This document shows positions 174 through 8,460 of a stretch of DNA of 64,000 bases, piece by piece. Under the pieces are notes generated by a model, which saw nothing but the letters and a program-made list of their open reading frames with translations, ran no database searches and was not told where the DNA came from. Origin of the DNA: Acidobacterium sp. S8 (GTDB lineage: Bacteria; Acidobacteriota; Terriglobia; Terriglobales; Acidobacteriaceae); the NCBI RefSeq assembly GCF_009765985.1, contig NZ_LMUM01000037.1, forward strand, positions 425,433 through 489,432, written 5' to 3'. The position numbers were made by a program, and so were the translations under genes. Every line of letters starts with the position of its first letter. Position 1 is the first letter of the stretch.

Positions 174-1757
174 TCAGCCCTGGATGCGCTTCTCTTTGCC
201 GATCCAGAACTGCTCGCGCAACTGATACTTCAGAATTTTCCCGGTTCCACCTTTAGGGAGAGCCTCTTTCTGAATCACAAATTGTCGTGGAAGCTTGAAG
301 CGTGCGATATATTTACCGGTCCATTCCAAAAGCTGCTCTTCGGTTACTGTTCTGTTCTCCCGCAGCACAATAATCGCGACAGGAATTTCTCCCCACTGAG
401 CGTCTGGAGCCGCGACAACGGCACACTCCGCGACATCAGGGTGCGCCTGGATCGCATGCTCCACCTCGATTGAAGCAATGTTCTCGCCGCCGCTGATGAT
501 CACATCTTTCTTGCGGTCAACGATCCGCAGGCAGCGGTCCTCGTTCCACACGGCCAGGTCTCCGGTATGCAGCCACCCGTCCACGATGGCATCATGCGTC
601 AGCACCGGAGCCTGGTAGTAGCCGTCCATTACATTGTCTCCCCGCACGATAATTTCTCCCACGGTACTTCCGTCCTGAGGGACGTCGACGCCACTCCCAT
701 CGACGACGCGGACCTCGACTCCAAGAAACGGCCACCCCGCTGACGCCGTGAACCTACGCCGCTCATCTTCATTCGCAAAAGTTAGCGTGCTCTTTGGCCG
801 CGCTGTGCTGATGACCGGCGCGGTCTCAGTCAGTCCGTAGCCAGCCCTGATCGTGGTTCCGGGGAAGAATGCTTCAAGGGCCCCGATCAACTCGGGAGAT
901 GCGGCCGCACCCCCGATGATGACGTGCTCAAGGCTGGACACGTCGAATCGCGAATGGTCCGGGCACGACATCAGCGCCGCCGCCATGGTCGGGACGACGA
1001 TCATGATCGTCGCACGCTCTTGCTCGATCAAGCGAAACACAGTCGGAGGATCAAAACGCCGCACCATCACCTGTTTTAAGCCGCACATGGTTGCAAATTG
1101 CGGAAAGCCCCAGCCGTTGGCGTGAAACAAGGGAATCGTGTGCAGAATCACCTGGCTGTCACTGTGATCCAAACTGCCCGCAAGAGACAGCGCATGCAAA
1201 TAGAGCGCGCGATGCGATAGCATGATGCCCTTCGGAATCCCGGTGCTTCCGCTGGTGTAGAAAAGCTCGGCAATGCTGGTCTCATCGATCGACATGAGAT
1301 CGGGAAGAGGAATTGGCTCTACCGCCATGAGAGATGAGAGCGTGGGACCACGGCCGGAATCTTCAATGGAGATAAAGTTGCAGCCGGGCACAGTCGCAAG
1401 AAGCTGTTCCACGACAGCCGAGAAAGCCTGTTCGTAAAGCACAATGCGCGGTTGCGCATGTTTTAGGATAACTTCAAGCTCCGAAGGCTGCAGGCGAACA
1501 TTCAGAGGCATCACGATCCCGCCAGCCAGCGGAACGGCATAGTAACTCTCCAGCAGCACATTGTTGTTGAAACTCAGAACTCCTATCCGGTCACCATCAA
1601 CCACTCCGGCGGCGACAAATCCCCCCGCCATGCGCCGAGAGCGATTGCCGAACTCCGCGTAGCTATATCGCGAACCTTCCGATACAACGCCGATCTTGCT
1701 GGGGTACAAATCCACCGCGCGGGACAGGCAGCGCAGGGGCGTGAGAGGAACATGCAT
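174..1757 (-). CDS. acyl-CoA synthetase (AMP-forming, fatty-acid type)
   Basis: Predicted to activate a carboxylic acid, probably a medium or long fatty acid, to its CoA thioester via an acyl-adenylate in the cytoplasm. The 527-residue protein has the ANL-family order: P-loop YTSGSTGIPKG (about residues 167-177), the GYGLTETAP motif, GWLHTGDLA, the hinge RIVDRKKDVIISGGENI, and the C-terminal catalytic-lysine motif PKGGTGKILK. Length is normal for the family. It follows the carboxylesterase gene by 28 bp on the same strand, so the two are probably cotranscribed: an ester hydrolysed by one could feed its acid to the other. Exact chain-length specificity cannot be read from the sequence. Confidence 0.9.
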   Translation of the reverse strand: MHVPLTPLRCLSRAVDLYPSKIGVVSEGSRYSYAEFGNRSRRMAGGFVAAGVVDGDRIGVLSFNNNVLLESYYAVPLAGGIVMPLNVRLQPSELEVILKHAQPRIVLYEQAFSAVVEQLLATVPGCNFISIEDSGRGPTLSSLMAVEPIPLPDLMSIDETSIAELFYTSGSTGIPKGIMLSHRALYLHALSLAGSLDHSDSQVILHTIPLFHANGWGFPQFATMCGLKQVMVRRFDPPTVFRLIEQERATIMIVVPTMAAALMSCPDHSRFDVSSLEHVIIGGAAASPELIGALEAFFPGTTIRAGYGLTETAPVISTARPKSTLTFANEDERRRFTASAGWPFLGVEVRVVDGSGVDVPQDGSTVGEIIVRGDNVMDGYYQAPVLTHDAIVDGWLHTGDLAVWNEDRCLRIVDRKKDVIISGGENIASIEVEHAIQAHPDVAECAVVAAPDAQWGEIPVAIIVLRENRTVTEEQLLEWTGKYIARFKLPRQFVIQKEALPKGGTGKILKYQLREQFWIGKEKRIQG

Positions 1758-1785: not shown

Positions 1786-3468
1786 TTAGTAATTTACAAG
1801 TTGCTGCTTGAGACGGTCCGGCGAAAGATGGCAGAAGATCGGAGAAAAGTCCTGCTGCGGAACCCCATCGCCGCCCTGGCTGAACGTTATATATGGTTCC
1901 TGGCCGATGTCCCATGCCGGCCAGTGCGGAAGGCCGGGACCGTTAGGGTCTCCGGACCTGGCGAAATTCGTCCAATAACTCTGCATCAGGTCCGACAACT
2001 TGTGATCCGTCGCGTCAAACGGCAGCCAGCTGAATGTGCGCGCCTCAAAAGTGCCGAAAACGTAAGGAAGCTCGAGGGAATGAAATGCTCCCAAAGCGGA
2101 CTCGCCCTCTCCCGGCACTGAGCGGTCGAACCTGTAGACAAATGCACGCTGCCCGGCGCTCGTTGTTAGAGCGGCTTCCGCTCCAATGGGACATGCAGCA
2201 ACTATATCGTTGCTCGCCTGATCGAGAGCCGGCGCGCCATGGATGAGAATCCTGGTCATGTAAGTTGCCACCGCCATGTCCGTCCAACTGCCGTAGAGAG
2301 GACGCGCCGTGTCCGCGAAGAGTTTGACCTGGTCTCCCACTCCAGACTTGCTGGCGGATTGCGGTGCCTTCTTCGCCGCTGCAGCCGCAGCGGTTCGGAA
2401 CGCGCTGAACTCTCTCGCGTTGACGCCGACAAGGATATCGACCCGCTGTATCGCGCCCAGGGCGAATGCTCTCGCAGGAGATTGGGGAAGCAGCCAGCCA
2501 TCCACAATGGACGCGTTGGGGTCATAACCTTTGAACTGTGATTGGATGAGCTCGTCTTCGATCTGGGCAACTTGAATAGCGGGCAGCTTTCTTAGCACTT
2601 CGATTTGCGATCCCGGCTGACCTCCCGCTTGTTTGCCAACCGCCTCACCGAGTCCCTCCATCTTCCGTAGATTCTGCTCAGGCGCCAGACCGAATCCGGG
2701 ACCGCTCTCCGCGATCACTCTGCGAAACAAACCTGTCGTAAGCGGCGATGTCATGAGAACGGTAGCGTCAATCGCTCCGGCAGATTCGCCGAACAATGTC
2801 ACGTTTCCTGGATCGCCGCCGAACAGGGCAATGTTCTGCTTGACCCACTTGAGCGCGGCAATCTGATCCAGCAGCCCGTAATTGCCGGAACTGTGGTGCG
2901 GAGATTCCGCCGTGAGCTCGGGATGCGCGAAGAAGCCCATTACGCCGAGCCGGTAGTTGATCGTGACCACGACAACGCCGCGCGACGCGAGGGAGCTGCC
3001 ATCATAACCGCTCTCCGTCCCGCTGCCGACCCTGTTACTGCCGCCGTGCAGCCAGACCATGACTGGAAGATGCGCGGCCGGCGCGGGTTGCGCAGTCCAG
3101 ACGTTGAGATAGAGACAATCCTCAGAGGGATCGACCGGCCGAGCGACATATGGCACGCCATAAGCCGCGGCCTGCGGAGCCATGAAAGTATCAGTGCCAT
3201 TCACATTCTGCATGCATGGGTGCGAGGCCTGCGTTGCGTCACGTACGCCCGACCATGCAGCGACAGGTTGCGGAGGCCGCCACCGCAAAGGGCCTATCGG
3301 CGGAGCGGCGTACGGTATTCCGGTGAAGACGGCGATGTTGCCTTGCTGCTTGCCGGCGATTGTTCCGCTGGCCAGCCGGATTGCAGGCCCAGAAGACCCA
3401 GTGTGCCCCGGCTTTTGTCCCGCGGCAGCCAACGTGGAAAGCGCCAGGCAAAGACAGATGATGCGCAT
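1786..3468 (-). CDS. type-B carboxylesterase, secreted
   Basis: Alpha/beta-hydrolase of the carboxylesterase/lipase (type B) family, 560 residues, predicted to hydrolyse carboxylic esters outside the cytoplasm. The N-terminus is a signal peptide (MRIICLCLALSTLAAAGQ). Visible motifs are the oxyanion-hole segment PVMVWLHGGSN, the EDCLYLNVW strand, the nucleophile elbow GESAGA and a late FHSLELPYVFG segment carrying the catalytic His. Length matches the family. First gene of a minus-strand pair with the acyl-CoA synthetase, and divergent from the MaoC gene across about 190 bp that must hold both promoters. Confidence 0.9.
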   Translation of the reverse strand: MRIICLCLALSTLAAAGQKPGHTGSSGPAIRLASGTIAGKQQGNIAVFTGIPYAAPPIGPLRWRPPQPVAAWSGVRDATQASHPCMQNVNGTDTFMAPQAAAYGVPYVARPVDPSEDCLYLNVWTAQPAPAAHLPVMVWLHGGSNRVGSGTESGYDGSSLASRGVVVVTINYRLGVMGFFAHPELTAESPHHSSGNYGLLDQIAALKWVKQNIALFGGDPGNVTLFGESAGAIDATVLMTSPLTTGLFRRVIAESGPGFGLAPEQNLRKMEGLGEAVGKQAGGQPGSQIEVLRKLPAIQVAQIEDELIQSQFKGYDPNASIVDGWLLPQSPARAFALGAIQRVDILVGVNAREFSAFRTAAAAAAKKAPQSASKSGVGDQVKLFADTARPLYGSWTDMAVATYMTRILIHGAPALDQASNDIVAACPIGAEAALTTSAGQRAFVYRFDRSVPGEGESALGAFHSLELPYVFGTFEARTFSWLPFDATDHKLSDLMQSYWTNFARSGDPNGPGLPHWPAWDIGQEPYITFSQGGDGVPQQDFSPIFCHLSPDRLKQQLVNY

Positions 3469-3656
3469 GACGAGCGGTCCTTCAAATTCGGGATGATTCG
3501 GATTGGAAATCGAACCGCGATAACAATAACCACTTTGTATCTTACTGTCCAGTCACTTATAATGGCGGCCACAGCCGGTCCCGGATCCCCGCGAGAGGGT
3601 TGCACGGCCAGGACCGTAACTACGAAAACCGTTCTGCGCAAAGCAGGGAGCTGGAA

Positions 3657-4094
3657 TTGAACACTGTATCTGCGGTAGGAGATTCATTCACATATCCGTT
3701 TACGATCACGCAGGAACAGATCGTGAGCTTTGCCAGGATTACCGGCGATACAAACCCAATTCACCTCGATCCTGCCGCCGCGTCGGCGGCCGAATTTGAT
3801 GGCTGCATCGCACATGGCGTCTTGATTCTCGGCGTATTCTCTAAAATATTCGGCACCATCCTCCACTCCGACGGACAGGTGGTGCTCGGGATCGACGCGC
3901 GATTTTTTTCTCCCGTACGGCCCGAGCTGCCTTACACCGCCATCGTTACCGTGGCGGAGATGCTGCCCGAAAAGTTTCAAGTTGTCTACCAGCTGGAGAT
4001 GTTCGCCGAAGACGGGAAGCAAGTCCTGCGCGGCTCCTGTCGGCTGCTGAACCGCAAACTCTATTCACCCGAAAGCGGCGTTGGCATAGGGTAG
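3657..4094 (+). CDS. MaoC-family (R)-specific enoyl-CoA hydratase-like protein
   Basis: Hot-dog-fold hydratase of the MaoC/PhaJ type, 145 residues, expected to hydrate a trans-2-enoyl-CoA. The hydratase-2 signature is present: ARITGDTNPIHLD supplies the catalytic Asp and His, followed by the family segment GCIAHGVLILG. The start chosen is TTG at 3657, preceded by GGGAG about seven bases upstream. An in-frame ATG at 3600 would add 19 residues unlike the family. Divergent from the esterase / acyl-CoA ligase pair, which suggests a shared role in acyl metabolism. The substrate is not determined. Confidence 0.82.
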   Translation: MNTVSAVGDSFTYPFTITQEQIVSFARITGDTNPIHLDPAAASAAEFDGCIAHGVLILGVFSKIFGTILHSDGQVVLGIDARFFSPVRPELPYTAIVTVAEMLPEKFQVVYQLEMFAEDGKQVLRGSCRLLNRKLYSPESGVGIG

Positions 4095-4148
4095 TGGGCC
4101 GTGAATACTGACCATAGAGTAAGATATGGCGTCGCCCGTGGAGGATTC

Positions 4149-5624
4149 ATGAAGGGTCTGAAATGTGTTCTGGCGCTGGTCGTGATGACGGCGTGTCTGC
4201 ATGCCCAATCTTTCGTCCAGCGCAAGGGTACTCGCCTGTCGCTCGATGGCCAGCCGTTCCGCTACAGCGGTGCCAACATTGAATGGCTCGGCTTGGAAGG
4301 CTACGGTCCCCACGACCCCGGCGGTCCCCGCTATCCCTCCCGCTTTGAAGTGGAGGATGCGTTCGCGACCGCCGCCGAAATGGGGGCCAGGGTTGTCCGC
4401 TCGCAGACCATCGGCGATACGGTTGGCTGTCCGCTTTGCATCGAGCCGGAGCAGGGAAAGTTTAACGATGCGGCATTCCAGTCTTCTGACTATGCGCTCG
4501 CAGTCGCGGCCAAGCATCACATTCGTCTCATCATCTCGCTCATCGGCGACTGCGCGACTTGCAGCGGCGGAGGAATCGGTCAGTTCCTGGCTTGGAACCA
4601 CGCGTCGAACCCGCAAGCTTTCTTTACTGATCCGGCCATCATTGCGGCATTTGAACGCCATATCGACGCTGTGCTTAACCATCGCAACAGTATTACTGGA
4701 GTGCTCTACCGCGACGACCCGACAATTCTGGCGTGGGAAAACTGCAATATCTGCAGCCTCAGCACACTCTTTTCGCAGGGCAATCTTGGGGAGGTTGCCG
4801 CGTGGTCAGAAACAATCGGCTTCCATATCAAACAACTTGATCATAACCATCTGTACCTCGACAGCAGCGGCCTATTCCGCAACTATCCCAACATCATCGA
4901 CAATTCCCAGACCGACATGGTTTCGTTTGAGGAATATCCACACTGGGACGCGCTCTTCGGCATGGCCCTCAGCTTTCCGCCAACCACTGCCGAGACTTTT
5001 TCGCAGGATGCTGCCGCGGTTACGCTCCATGGCAAAGTTTTCGTAGTCAATGAATTCGGCTGGGACCGCACCAACTGGAAATCAGCCGCTGACCTGCAGC
5101 GCCTTCTCGACACCATGGCGAACGATCCCAATATCTCAGGGGATGACTTCTGGGCGCTCCAGGCGCACCTTGAAAATTTCGGCTTTCAACCAATCCCGGC
5201 CGGCGCCAGCAATCCAAAGTTTGCGGCGGAAGGAGAATGCGGCGAATGGTGGGCGCTCTATTATCCGGGCATCCGGACGCTGGTCATGTCTGCCGAGGAC
5301 ATGGGCGCACGAGCGCAGCAACTGCGCAACCACGGATACATAATGTCCGGTATGGCCGTCCCCGCACATGCTGTTCCGCCCGCACCTGTGATCACATCCA
5401 TCGTGGTTGGCGGACTTGTCGTCTGGCGTGGCTCAGCCGGCGCGCTTCGATACTCGGTAGAACGTTATGACGCTGTGTCCAAGGTCTGGCGGACGATCTG
5501 CGACAAGTGTGCCAGCGACACCGACGATCCCTGGCCCGACCCGCATCCCGTTTCAGGTGCGAAATATCGGGTTACTGCAATCAATGCCGACGGTGTTTCC
5601 AGTCCGGCGTCGCAGCCCCGCTGA
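4149..5624 (+). CDS. secreted glycoside hydrolase family 5-like protein with four CxxC motifs
   Basis: About 491 residues with a signal peptide (MKGLKCVLALVVMTACLHAQ). The body follows a GH5 mannanase-like TIM barrel: GQPFRYSGANIEWLGLEG near the start, DDPTILAWENCN mid-protein, and the nucleophile strand VFVVNEFGWD. In typical GH5 mannanases the acid/base strand reads ILAWELANEP; here the catalytic Glu position is Ile (ILAWENCNIC). Four CxxC pairs (CPLC, CATC, CNIC, CDKC) are unusual for the family. A C-terminal fibronectin-like segment follows residue ~420. Start at 4149 is chosen because GGAGG lies just upstream and the signal peptide begins there; an earlier in-frame ATG at 4101 has neither. 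Substrate unknown; it may be inactive or a distinct subfamily. Confidence 0.75.
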   Translation: MKGLKCVLALVVMTACLHAQSFVQRKGTRLSLDGQPFRYSGANIEWLGLEGYGPHDPGGPRYPSRFEVEDAFATAAEMGARVVRSQTIGDTVGCPLCIEPEQGKFNDAAFQSSDYALAVAAKHHIRLIISLIGDCATCSGGGIGQFLAWNHASNPQAFFTDPAIIAAFERHIDAVLNHRNSITGVLYRDDPTILAWENCNICSLSTLFSQGNLGEVAAWSETIGFHIKQLDHNHLYLDSSGLFRNYPNIIDNSQTDMVSFEEYPHWDALFGMALSFPPTTAETFSQDAAAVTLHGKVFVVNEFGWDRTNWKSAADLQRLLDTMANDPNISGDDFWALQAHLENFGFQPIPAGASNPKFAAEGECGEWWALYYPGIRTLVMSAEDMGARAQQLRNHGYIMSGMAVPAHAVPPAPVITSIVVGGLVVWRGSAGALRYSVERYDAVSKVWRTICDKCASDTDDPWPDPHPVSGAKYRVTAINADGVSSPASQPR

Positions 5625-5674: not shown

Positions 5675-6364
5675 ATGCCAAAACGCTTCAACTTGCGCGA
5701 GGAAGCTCAAAAAGCCTTCCAGAACCGCAAGCGAAAACCGGAATTAAAGCGTGACGCTGTCCTTTCGACTGCTGCGCACCTTTTTCTGAAGCACGGATAT
5801 CGCCGGACTTCGATGGAGGACATCGCTGATCATTTGGAGATCACCAAGCCGGCGCTCTATCACTATTTCACCAGCAAGGACGACATCCTCGTCGGCTGCT
5901 ATTCGCAAGGTATTGCAAGCATTCTGACCCGGCTGGATGACGCCGACAAGGCGACCGGCTCCGGTCTCGAAAAAACGCGCGCCTTTCTGCGCGTCTGGGT
6001 CGAGACGATCACCACGATGGAATTTGGCCAGTGTGTTGTGAGCCTGGACGACAATGAGCTGGCGCCCGCCGCGCGCAGCGAAGTCCGCAGATTGAAGCGG
6101 CGGATCGACCGCAGCCTTCGCGAGCGAATTGCGGAAGGCATTGCCGACGGAACGATAAAGCCGTGCGACATCCGCCTGGTCGCGTTCGCATTCGGTGGCG
6201 CGGTCAACTCTATCGGCGCCTGGTACGATCCGAATGGCAAATTGAGTACCTCGGCCTTCGTGAAGGCGTATACCGACATTTTGATTGATGGCGTGAGCAT
6301 GGCACCGGCTCCAAAGCCGGTTCGCAGCAGCAGGAGAGGAGCGAGAAGTACGAAATCGGAGTGA
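5675..6364 (+). CDS. TetR/AcrR-family transcriptional regulator
   Basis: About 229 residues. The N-terminal helix-turn-helix is typical of TetR: AAHLFLKHGYRRTSMEDIAD, then ITKPALYHYFTSKDDIL. The remainder is the variable ligand-binding domain and the tail is Arg/Ser rich. The ATG at 5675 is chosen because the homologous region begins there; upstream in-frame sequence back to 5507 overlaps the preceding GH5-like gene. It lies 50 bp after that gene and just before the decayed region, so its original target may have been lost. The ligand cannot be predicted. Confidence 0.88.
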   Translation: MPKRFNLREEAQKAFQNRKRKPELKRDAVLSTAAHLFLKHGYRRTSMEDIADHLEITKPALYHYFTSKDDILVGCYSQGIASILTRLDDADKATGSGLEKTRAFLRVWVETITTMEFGQCVVSLDDNELAPAARSEVRRLKRRIDRSLRERIAEGIADGTIKPCDIRLVAFAFGGAVNSIGAWYDPNGKLSTSAFVKAYTDILIDGVSMAPAPKPVRSSRRGARSTKSE

Positions 6365-6483: not shown

Positions 6484-7311
6484 TCACCACGATCCCTGCT
6501 TAGCGCCATACCACCATACGAGTCCGAGAGTCGCCGTATCCTGGTGCCCAACCAGAGCGCCGGCCGTTCCCCTCGGAAAGAACAACTGGTTCGTCCAATC
6601 CCGCCTATATTCCAGCATTCCGAGGAAACCGTTGCCAAACCGGTAGGTCGCAGTTCCGGTGCCCTCCTTCAGAGCTTGGGTGGTTCCGCTGAAAAGACCT
6701 CCGCGATCTACGTGCGATGGAGCGGAAGATTGGCCAGGTGCCGCGTTTTGCCAGACTCGTTGGATCGAGTAGTCAGCCTCGGCCCCGAGAAGAAGTTTTG
6801 GTTTGACCTGCCAACTCAAATAGCTATCGAAGATATGAGTCTTGCCATTTGCTGGATCTAGAATCGGGTTGAGACAAAGGCCGGGCTGCCAAGGAGCCGC
6901 GCTGCAGTTGGTGGACGATGTGACATCAGGGTGCTCCTGTCCAAGGTAATAATTGATGTTCCAGGTAATGGAGTGCGTCGGCGTCACCGTAAATCCGAAC
7001 ATTTCGTCTTTGAAGGAATTGAATGCTTCGGTCTGTTGAATGCCGTTCGTGAGCCAATAATTGAACGCCACCTTATCGTTGATCTGAAAGTTCGTACGCA
7101 CACCCATGTGGTAGAAGGGAAGGTAATAGAAATAGAAAGAACGGGAGTAATTGAGCTGATCTTTGGTGTAGTTGCTTTCGAAGCCAAGCGAACTAGCCCA
7201 CTTACCGAAATCAATTGTCAGCCCTTTGCCGATCGGGGCTACGTACCGCCCATAGGCCTGGAAAATGTTGCGATAGATATCCGGGCGCGTTTCGTTCGCG
7301 CGATGGAGCAC
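6484..7311 (-). pseudogene. outer-membrane beta-barrel porin (OmpL/BBP2-like), C-terminal fragment
   Basis: About 275 residues of a porin-like barrel with alternating aromatic strands (GLTIDFGKWASSLGFE, FYFYYLPFYHMGVR) and a natural C-terminus ending WWYGAKQGSW. Homologous proteins are much longer and begin with a signal peptide. Here the family sequence starts abruptly near 7308 (reading LHRANETRPDIYRN), with no signal peptide. The break coincides with the beginning of the hypF remnant on the other strand, so the 5' part was lost by rearrangement. It is unlikely to reach the outer membrane. Family assignment is from recognised pattern, not alignment. Confidence 0.75.
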
Positions 7312-8460
7312 GATCTTCCACCCGTGCTCGCTGTCGGAGGCGAACTTAAAAATGCCATCTGCCTAACAAAAGGAAAGAACGCTTTTATTGGGCAACATAT
7401 CGGCGATCTTGAAAATCTGGCAGCTTACACCTTCTTTCAGGAATCGATGGCACATCTAAAACAAACCCTCGCGGTAGAGCCAGAGGTGATCGCGTACGAT
7501 TTTCACCCCGACTATCTCTCTACTCAGTGGACCCTTCAGCAAAAGGGCATCAAGACGATCGGCGTGCAGCATCATCACGCCCACGTTGTCTCCTGTATGG
7601 CCGAGAACCATCTCTCCGGCCCCGTTATAGGGATAGTTCTGGACGGCACAGGTTACGGAACCGATGCTCAGATATGGGGCGGAGAGATTCTGCTCGCTGA
7701 CTTTGTTGGTTTCAGAAGGGTTGGACATTTTGAATATGTGCCGATGCCGGGCGGAGCGCAGGCTATCCGAGAGCCTTGGCGCATGGCGGTTTCTCACCTG
7801 CTGCATGCAGGAGAAAAGTGCTTCGTAGATGGCGTTCCATTTCTTGGACAGATCCCTCGTAGCCATATCGAGACAGTACGACAGATGGTGGAACGGCAAA
7901 TTAGGTCTCCCTTGACCTCCAGCTGCGGAAGGCTATTTGATAGTGTTGCCGCCTTGATCGGTGCGCGCTCTCATGTCACCTTCGAAGCACAAGCAGCCAT
8001 CGAGATGGAAGCGCTTTGTGAGGGTGAGATTGAGGATGGCGCCTACTTGTTCGATGTCCGTGGAGGTGAATGCTTGGAGATCGGCGTATCTGTCCTGTTT
8101 GAACAGATCCTCGCTGATCTGAAAAATGGTGTTCCGCGCAGTGTGATCAGTAGAAGATTTCATAACGGGCTAGTCTCTACTCTTAGTGAAATCGTTTCTG
8201 ACATCGCTGTAGGGACGAGTATTCGACAGGCATGTCTCAGCGGTGGATGCTTTCTGAATCGGCAGCTCACGTCCGGCCTCATCAATCGCTTAGAAAAAGC
8301 AGGCATACAGGTCTTTACTCAATCTCAGGTACCGCCAGGAGACGGGGGATTAAGCCTGGGACAGGCAATGATTGCAGCGCATGCCGGCTCTCCCTGTCCG
8401 AGCCCGTCCACAAGCAACGTGATGACTCTCACAAACAATAGATACGCGCAGTTCAGGTGA
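7312..8460 (+). pseudogene. hypF: hypF, C-terminal (Kae1-like carbamoyltransferase) fragment
   Basis: HypF is the carbamoyltransferase that prepares the cyanide ligands of [NiFe] hydrogenase; the full protein is about 750 residues. Only the last ~370 are here, starting at LAVGGELKNAICLTKG and including HIGDLENLAAYTFF, HPDYLSTQW, the metal-binding HHHAHVVSCMAEN, LDGTGYGTDAQIWGGE and the end segment GDGGLSLGQAMIAA. The acylphosphatase, zinc-finger and YrdC domains are missing. The same frame stays open upstream to 6931, but that part is the antisense of the porin fragment and does not encode HypF. No other hyp or hydrogenase gene is in the window. Confidence 0.85.

Follow-up and report, generated by a model that had tools for sequence, protein, structure and literature searches.

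A putatively exported GH5-type protein of Acidobacterium sp. S8 from a clade with a strand-6 glutamate, eight conserved cysteines and, in nearly all members, no strand-4 acid/base glutamate

The window, the stretch of 64,000 nucleotides of Acidobacterium sp. S8 analysed here, contains at positions 4149-5624 of the forward strand an open reading frame (P0001; ATG at 4149, 491 aa followed by a stop) encoding a GH5-like protein with a remodelled active site. In the textbook view of clan GH-A the acid/base is fixed on strand 4 and the nucleophile on strand 7, and in canonical GH5 enzymes the strand-4 Glu acts as the acid/base and is hydrogen-bonded by a strand-6 His. In the clade to which P0001 belongs (19 related genes from 17 genomes, P0001 included, 39 to 98% identical among themselves) the strand-4 Glu (column 201) has been lost from 18 of the 19 members and the strand-6 residue (column 261) is Glu in all of them, as against Glu and His, respectively, in all 22 canonical relatives. 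Judged from this comparison of sequences, the carboxylate appears to have passed from one member of the catalytic dyad to the other, from strand 4 to strand 6. The reading that we favour, at slightly less than even confidence, is that P0001 is a neofunctionalised, exported offshoot of the mannan-type GH5 enzymes with a rebuilt dyad, which would still cleave or transfer glycosides using E302 as the nucleophile and E261 as a candidate acid/base, its cysteine pairs being mostly disulfides. The more specific claim of an active GH5-fold glycosidase or transglycosidase whose acid/base carboxylate has moved from strand 4 to strand 6, changing places with its dyad partner in a site rebuilt with Cys pairs, is possible and on balance doubtful. 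The features of the gene, its product and its neighbours are listed in Table 1.

Table 1. Features of P0001 and adjoining genes, in positions of the window. Counts refer to 19 clade rows and 22 canonical rows unless stated otherwise.
Feature	Position	Strand	Observation
Acyl-CoA-ligase-type AMP-binding enzyme	174..1757	-	PF00501, E 7.1e-79
Type-B carboxylesterase	1786..3468	-	PF00135, E 4.5e-119
MaoC-like dehydratase	3600..4094	+	PF01575, E 1.8e-20; ends 54 bases before ATG
GGAGG, ribosome-binding-site-like	4140..4144	+	4 bases before ATG; seen in sequence
P0001, remodelled GH5-like protein gene	4149..5624	+	ORF; relatives under purifying selection
Signal-peptide-like stretch, residues 1-19 (MKGLKCVLALVVMTACLHA)	4149..4205	+	judged by eye; model helix 2-17
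(beta/alpha)8 barrel, residues 20-403	4206..5357	+	model; PDB GH5 matches over 18-403
R84, strand 2, active-site Arg retained	4398..4400	+	19/19 clade, 22/22 canonical
Cys pair 1, C94/C97 (CPLC), loop after strand 2	4428..4439	+	19/19; CxxC in 2/22 canonical (L023, L073)
Cys pair 2, C135/C138 (CATC), loop after strand 3	4551..4562	+	two Cys in 19/19; C-x15-C in L064
Cys pair 3, C199/C202 (CNIC), strand 4 end, flanking former acid/base	4743..4754	+	19/19; canonical 0/22
I201, catalytic acid/base Glu column	4749..4751	+	clade M12 V3 G2 I1 E1; canonical E 22/22
E261, strand 6, conserved GH5 His column; candidate substitute acid/base	4929..4931	+	E 19/19; canonical H 22/22
Y263, strand 6 Tyr retained	4935..4937	+	19/19
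E302, strand 7, nucleophile column	5052..5054	+	19/19 clade, 22/22 canonical
W335, strand 8 Trp retained	5151..5153	+	19/19
Fn3-like C-terminal domain, residues 408-491	5370..5621	+	model of domain alone; Foldseek
Cys pair 4, C451/C454 (CDKC), Fn3-like domain	5499..5510	+	19/19; 0/8 canonical rows with letters there
TetR-type regulator	5675..6364	+	PF00440 and PF17932; 50 bases after stop

A model of P0001 was calculated with AlphaFold2 from a 32-row alignment (pLDDT 90.2, pTM 0.91), in which strand 2 comprises residues 82-85, strand 3 residues 126-130 and strand 4 residues 193-197. The best solved structure for this model was the mannanase 8gf3 (Z 41.5, rmsd 2.0, 326 residues), followed by 9m20, 4qp0, 6tn6 and 1rh9; the top structural matches are GH5 mannanases and mannosidases, indicating a GH5-type (beta/alpha)8 barrel. 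Kinship with GH5 was also detectable by sequence, since mannanases in the PDB matched P0001 with E values down to 2.1e-22. The PF00150 profile gave no match in P0001 at E up to 1, and among the relatives scored above the cut-off in L002 and below it in L007, while Pfam, NCBIfam and PHROGs searches yielded nothing useful for P0001 and NCBIfam nothing for five relatives. Residues 408-491, folded alone, gave a pLDDT of 93.2, and a Foldseek search with this domain returned Fn3 domains for the most part (lowest E 2.8e-3, no match reaching 0.001; query-normalised TM-score up to 0.77, for 4o00); the Pfam fn3 profile matched one of 20 members, weakly (E 0.029). On these models P0001 is a GH5-type barrel with an Fn3-like C-terminal domain. 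The gene is present as a single copy in its own genome.

Residue counts refer to the 19 clade rows and the 22 canonical rows; of the latter, 17 were taken from genomes belonging to the phylum and five come from plasmid records. I201, within the segment AWENCNIC (residues 195-202), aligns with the Glu of the Asn-Glu motif in the PDB mannanases and canonical relatives, and the segment VVNEFGWD (residues 299-306) places E302 in the nucleophile column. N200 is found in every clade row and every canonical row, and Q86 and T87 are likewise invariant in the clade. On strand 3, G133, D134 and C135 occur in 18 of the 19 clade rows, where the canonical rows have mostly Asn or Asp, and Trp. The comparison of columns between the two sets therefore indicates that the active site was remodelled at the ends of strands 2, 3, 4 and 6, the new residues afterwards becoming fixed. 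With the mannanases BlMan5_7 (8gf3), GmMAN19-1 (9m20), tomato LeMan (1rh9) and that of Thermotoga petrophila (3pz9), P0001 shares the barrel, the order of motifs and the columns of Arg84, Asn200, Tyr263, Glu302 and Trp335; however, enzymes of this type carry Glu at 201 and His at 261, where the P0001 clade has a small or hydrophobic residue and Glu, and they lack Cys pairs 2-4. Two clade members deserve separate mention: L031 (G507:C36:12839-14266) is the only one to combine Glu at the former acid/base position (CNEC) with the new Glu on strand 6, and L064 (G907:C210:1106-2578) has Gly at the acid/base position. The earlier note had described a GH5-like secreted protein with its nucleophile strand kept and the usual acid/base Glu missing, and the mannanase matches, the signal-peptide-like N-terminus (by eye) and the residue columns agree with it; to conclude that there is no acid/base at all would be too simple, since E261, a change that the note did not contain, replaces the very His that bonds the acid/base in canonical GH5 enzymes and offers a candidate substitute acid. 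The different catalytic mechanism considered in the note is possible.

The weight of the strand-6 position was assessed from published work. The acid/base Glu of CtCel5C is hydrogen-bonded (2.7 Å) by the strand-6 His, and in CpMan5B (GH5_36) an Arg takes over this task, R196A killing activity and R196H keeping 7 and 14% of it; in the part of the source available, replacement of the strand-6 residue in the GH5 enzymes tested abolished or harmed activity (PMC3835425). The spacing between the acid/base and strand-6 residues is 60 in P0001 (I201-E261), close to the 58 of CtCel5C and 59 of CpMan5B given there. GH5_36, as described in that part of the source, resembles the P0001 clade in a clade-wide replacement of the strand-6 His, there by Arg, but keeps its acid/base Glu and its activity, whereas the P0001 clade has an acidic residue in that place and, but for L031, no acid/base Glu (PMC3835425). 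The notion of a moved acid arises because an invariant Glu now adjoins the place of the lost carboxylate and the acid/base Glu itself has disappeared. Three observations weigh against the favoured reading at this point: changes at the strand-6 position are damaging in the GH5 enzymes tested, the occurrence of E201 together with E261 in L031 means that neither change strictly requires the other, and E261 lies in a block of the model with a pLDDT of 84. We know of no GH5 enzyme that is active with Glu at the strand-6 His position.

The search of the family covered 398 genomes and found members of the clade in 14 of them (17 matched at E 1e-10, of which three carried canonical genes); outside the family, three further genomes of the class (G856, G907 and G953) carry members. 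The remaining three genomes of the genus, two of which are incomplete, yielded no eight-Cys gene, and the distribution is therefore patchy. Relatives were not found in the viral contigs searched; 31 plasmid records matched, and the five that were opened all carried the canonical Glu and His. A contig scan using eight-residue patterns of P0001 alone matched a single record, the one from which L026 was also obtained, and is therefore of little informative value. In a tree of 28 rows the 19 members lay on one side of a branch with support of 100/99, which fell to 88/87 (present in 92% of bootstrap trees) after removal of the diagnostic columns together with the Fn3-like region; long branches were flagged in both trees. 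L064 is the deepest member of the clade. On the tree lacking the diagnostic columns E201 needs at least two changes, so that the Glu of L031 was either regained or kept. Among canonical proteins, the Streptomyces microflavus plasmid protein WP_176145644.1 (L073) and L010, L009 and L033 of Acidobacteriota have the two-domain layout and the WRGSAGA tail motif of P0001; unlike P0001, they have the normal Glu/His dyad and Cys pair 1 at most. A second, broken copy was observed in one genome (G382:C2, about 2921618-2922094; L025, L040:18436-19212), about 9 kb downstream of the intact L022; its barrel before residue 286 is unmatched and its end lies in another frame.

The loss of the acid/base could also mean that P0001 is a non-catalytic protein which binds or senses carbohydrates, its GH5 pocket serving for sugar recognition and its chemistry gone. 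Precedents are provided by GH5_30 and by the Clostridium thermocellum biosensor module Rsi24C-GH5, the latter of which, in the available part of the source, has lost its acid/base and still binds cellulose (PMC3526467). The absence of the Glu from 18 of 19 rows, the varied residues (M, V, G, I) in its place, the Fn3-like domain and the regulators often found alongside (TetR here and at L040, L041, L042 and L070) would all suit a binder. However, the nucleophile-column Glu and the strand-6 Tyr, present in 19/19, would not have to be kept for binding alone, a new Glu has been gained exactly at the dyad and fixed, and no signalling domain is attached. We regard a purely binding protein as possible, if rather unlikely. 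The favoured reading takes the same losses as those of a rebuilt enzyme, probably not of a broken one, because the new features persist in close relatives.

The mature chain (residues 20-491) contains nine Cys and four CxxC motifs, whereas 20,000 shuffles of it gave a mean of 0.15 CxxC and a maximum of 3, indicating that the number exceeds chance. All eight Cys are present in every clade member and the full set in none of the canonical relatives; pair 1 occurs alone in two of these (L023 and L073), and pairs 2, 3 and 4 were seen only together. In L064 the loop of pair 2 is 12 residues longer. In the model pairs 1-3 follow strands 2, 3 and 4, that is three neighbouring loops which by topology would lie on the catalytic face, with the block holding pair 2 (131-140) at a pLDDT of 68. 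The earlier note had drawn attention to four unusual CxxC pairs spread over the chain and proposed checking their conservation in a family search; close homologs do keep all eight Cys. Of the pairs, which the note suggested may bind metal or form disulfides near the active site, three lie in the barrel and the fourth in the separate Fn3-like domain. Most likely the pairs are mostly local disulfides, a view favoured by the probable export of the protein, the stand-alone pair 1 and the wide pair-2 spacing in L064. That pairs 2, 3 and 4 occur jointly speaks instead for a shared role and possibly a metal site, and is poorly explained by independent local disulfides.

Another explanation is that the Cys pairs bind a metal or provide a thiolate on the catalytic face, as Zn-Cys4 or with a catalytic Cys as in GH127/GH146. 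GH127/GH146 enzymes have a different fold from P0001. They bind Zn by three Cys and a Glu and use a Cys as nucleophile. It has been shown with these enzymes that a Zn-bound Cys can replace a carboxylate (PMC10728902); like P0001, where both would lie near the catalytic face by topology, they combine Cys and Glu in a remodelled site of glycosidase type, but the Cys arrangement differs. The predicted position of CxxC pairs after three neighbouring strands, and the appearance of pairs 2-4 together with the loss of the acid/base, are consistent with such a site. Against this stand export to a place that is probably oxidising, pair 1 on its own in two canonical relatives, the L064 spacing, which a CxxC metal knuckle hardly allows, the position of pair 4 in another domain and the absence of a CxxCH haem motif from P0001. 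No GH127-type or metal site was seen among the matches listed in the Foldseek/VIA structure lists. The metal or thiolate explanation appears improbable.

The neighbourhood of the gene was compared across the 19 clade flanks, with Pfam searches of chosen neighbours at six loci. Six loci of one genus share neighbours, which is read as common descent, and a fixed operon was rejected since the neighbours vary across the flanks. The TetR gene of L042 has relatives at L040, L041 and L070, and its TIM barrel at L040 and L070; the L042 and L040 loci encode a TonB-type outer-membrane protein, xylose-isomerase-like TIM barrels and a GFO/IDH/MocA oxidoreductase, the L043 locus encodes GH38 and GH92, and L048 and L049 have esterase, BKACE and SDR neighbours, the BKACE and SDR of L048 being shared with L049. 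This BKACE and SDR pair (L048:2468-4286 and L049:9778-11568) is 80% and 71% identical between genomes of different genera. The canonical relatives on plasmids adjoin manA, GH2 or GH1 genes and sugar transporters, that is, clusters of sugar or mannan type. Taken together the contexts would agree on the catabolism of something glycosylated, with no single substrate. The glycoside-type context of the canonical relatives and of L043, L042 and L040 supports the favoured reading, whereas the inconstant neighbourhood, and the ligase, MaoC, esterase and TetR genes of the window, which do not point to sugar, count against it. Elsewhere in the window a porin-like BBP2 gene (6484-8460) was matched only from profile position 75 and adjoins a HypF C-terminal part without its front; both may be remnants of larger genes.

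The genes beside P0001 bear on a further explanation, a retaining glycosidase working without a general acid on substrates with a good leaving group (phenol, acyl or thio), with water or an external base for the second step. Plant myrosinase offers the comparison for an acid-less retaining glycosidase. A kept nucleophile with a lost acid/base fits this chemistry, and the esterase, acyl-CoA ligase and MaoC genes of the window, like the esterase, BKACE and SDR genes of L048/L049, would suit the breakdown of an acyl or aromatic aglycone; the genome of P0001 (G000) has only three PF00135 esterases, one of them 0.7 kb away. However, an esterase is near the gene in only three of the 19 flanks (the window, L048 and L049; 16/19 lack the esterase of the window), and both the change of the strand-6 His to an invariant Glu and the Cys pairs are left unexplained. 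A literature search on 3-keto-glycoside pathways returned nothing to the point. We would give this explanation a low probability. Plain decay was rejected on the presence of R84, N200, Y263, E302 and W335 in 19/19 and on dN/dS values of 0.12-0.20, obtained for four gene pairs with dS up to 1.3 (nine pairs were tried, of which one was near saturation, at 0.04, and four were saturated); the codons of the relatives are under purifying selection. Sequencing error or chance at I201 and the Cys was rejected, as the features recur in 19 genes.

In the favoured reading, that of an enzyme with a rebuilt dyad, a beta-glycoside would be cleaved or transferred, most likely a mannoside or a related plant or microbial glycoside. 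E302 would be the attacking nucleophile, held by the retained R84, N200 and Y263, and E261 could donate and accept the proton, either directly or via water. Cys pairs 1-3 would each close a local disulfide, making the loops that follow strands 2, 3 and 4 more rigid and holding the rebuilt end of strand 4 in place, and pair 4 would form a disulfide within the Fn3-like domain.

Loss of the acid/base alone is not new in GH5, as modules without the full catalytic set are described, in the part of the source available, for GH5_30, a Xanthomonas group, a GH5_8-like group and Rsi24C-GH5, the last without the acid/base (PMC3526467). GH5_30 and Rsi24C-GH5 have this loss in common with the P0001 clade, which is set apart from them, as they are described there, by its kept nucleophile and remaining pocket, its dyad Glu and its eight Cys. 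Among the records listed by a literature search there was no published migration of the acid/base in GH5 or clan A, no CxxC-rich GH5 and no similar acidobacterial GH5, nor any protein uniting a kept nucleophile, a His-to-Glu change in the dyad and eight fixed Cys. The clade cautions that similarity alone is insufficient to name such genes mannanases, and E261 together with the eight Cys provides a marker set for finding more members. It also makes it possible to test cleanly whether the catalytic acid of a barrel can change its position, with L031 as a natural double-carboxylate form. If the acid has indeed moved, this would be a natural re-siting of a catalytic residue in the otherwise conserved site of clan GH-A.
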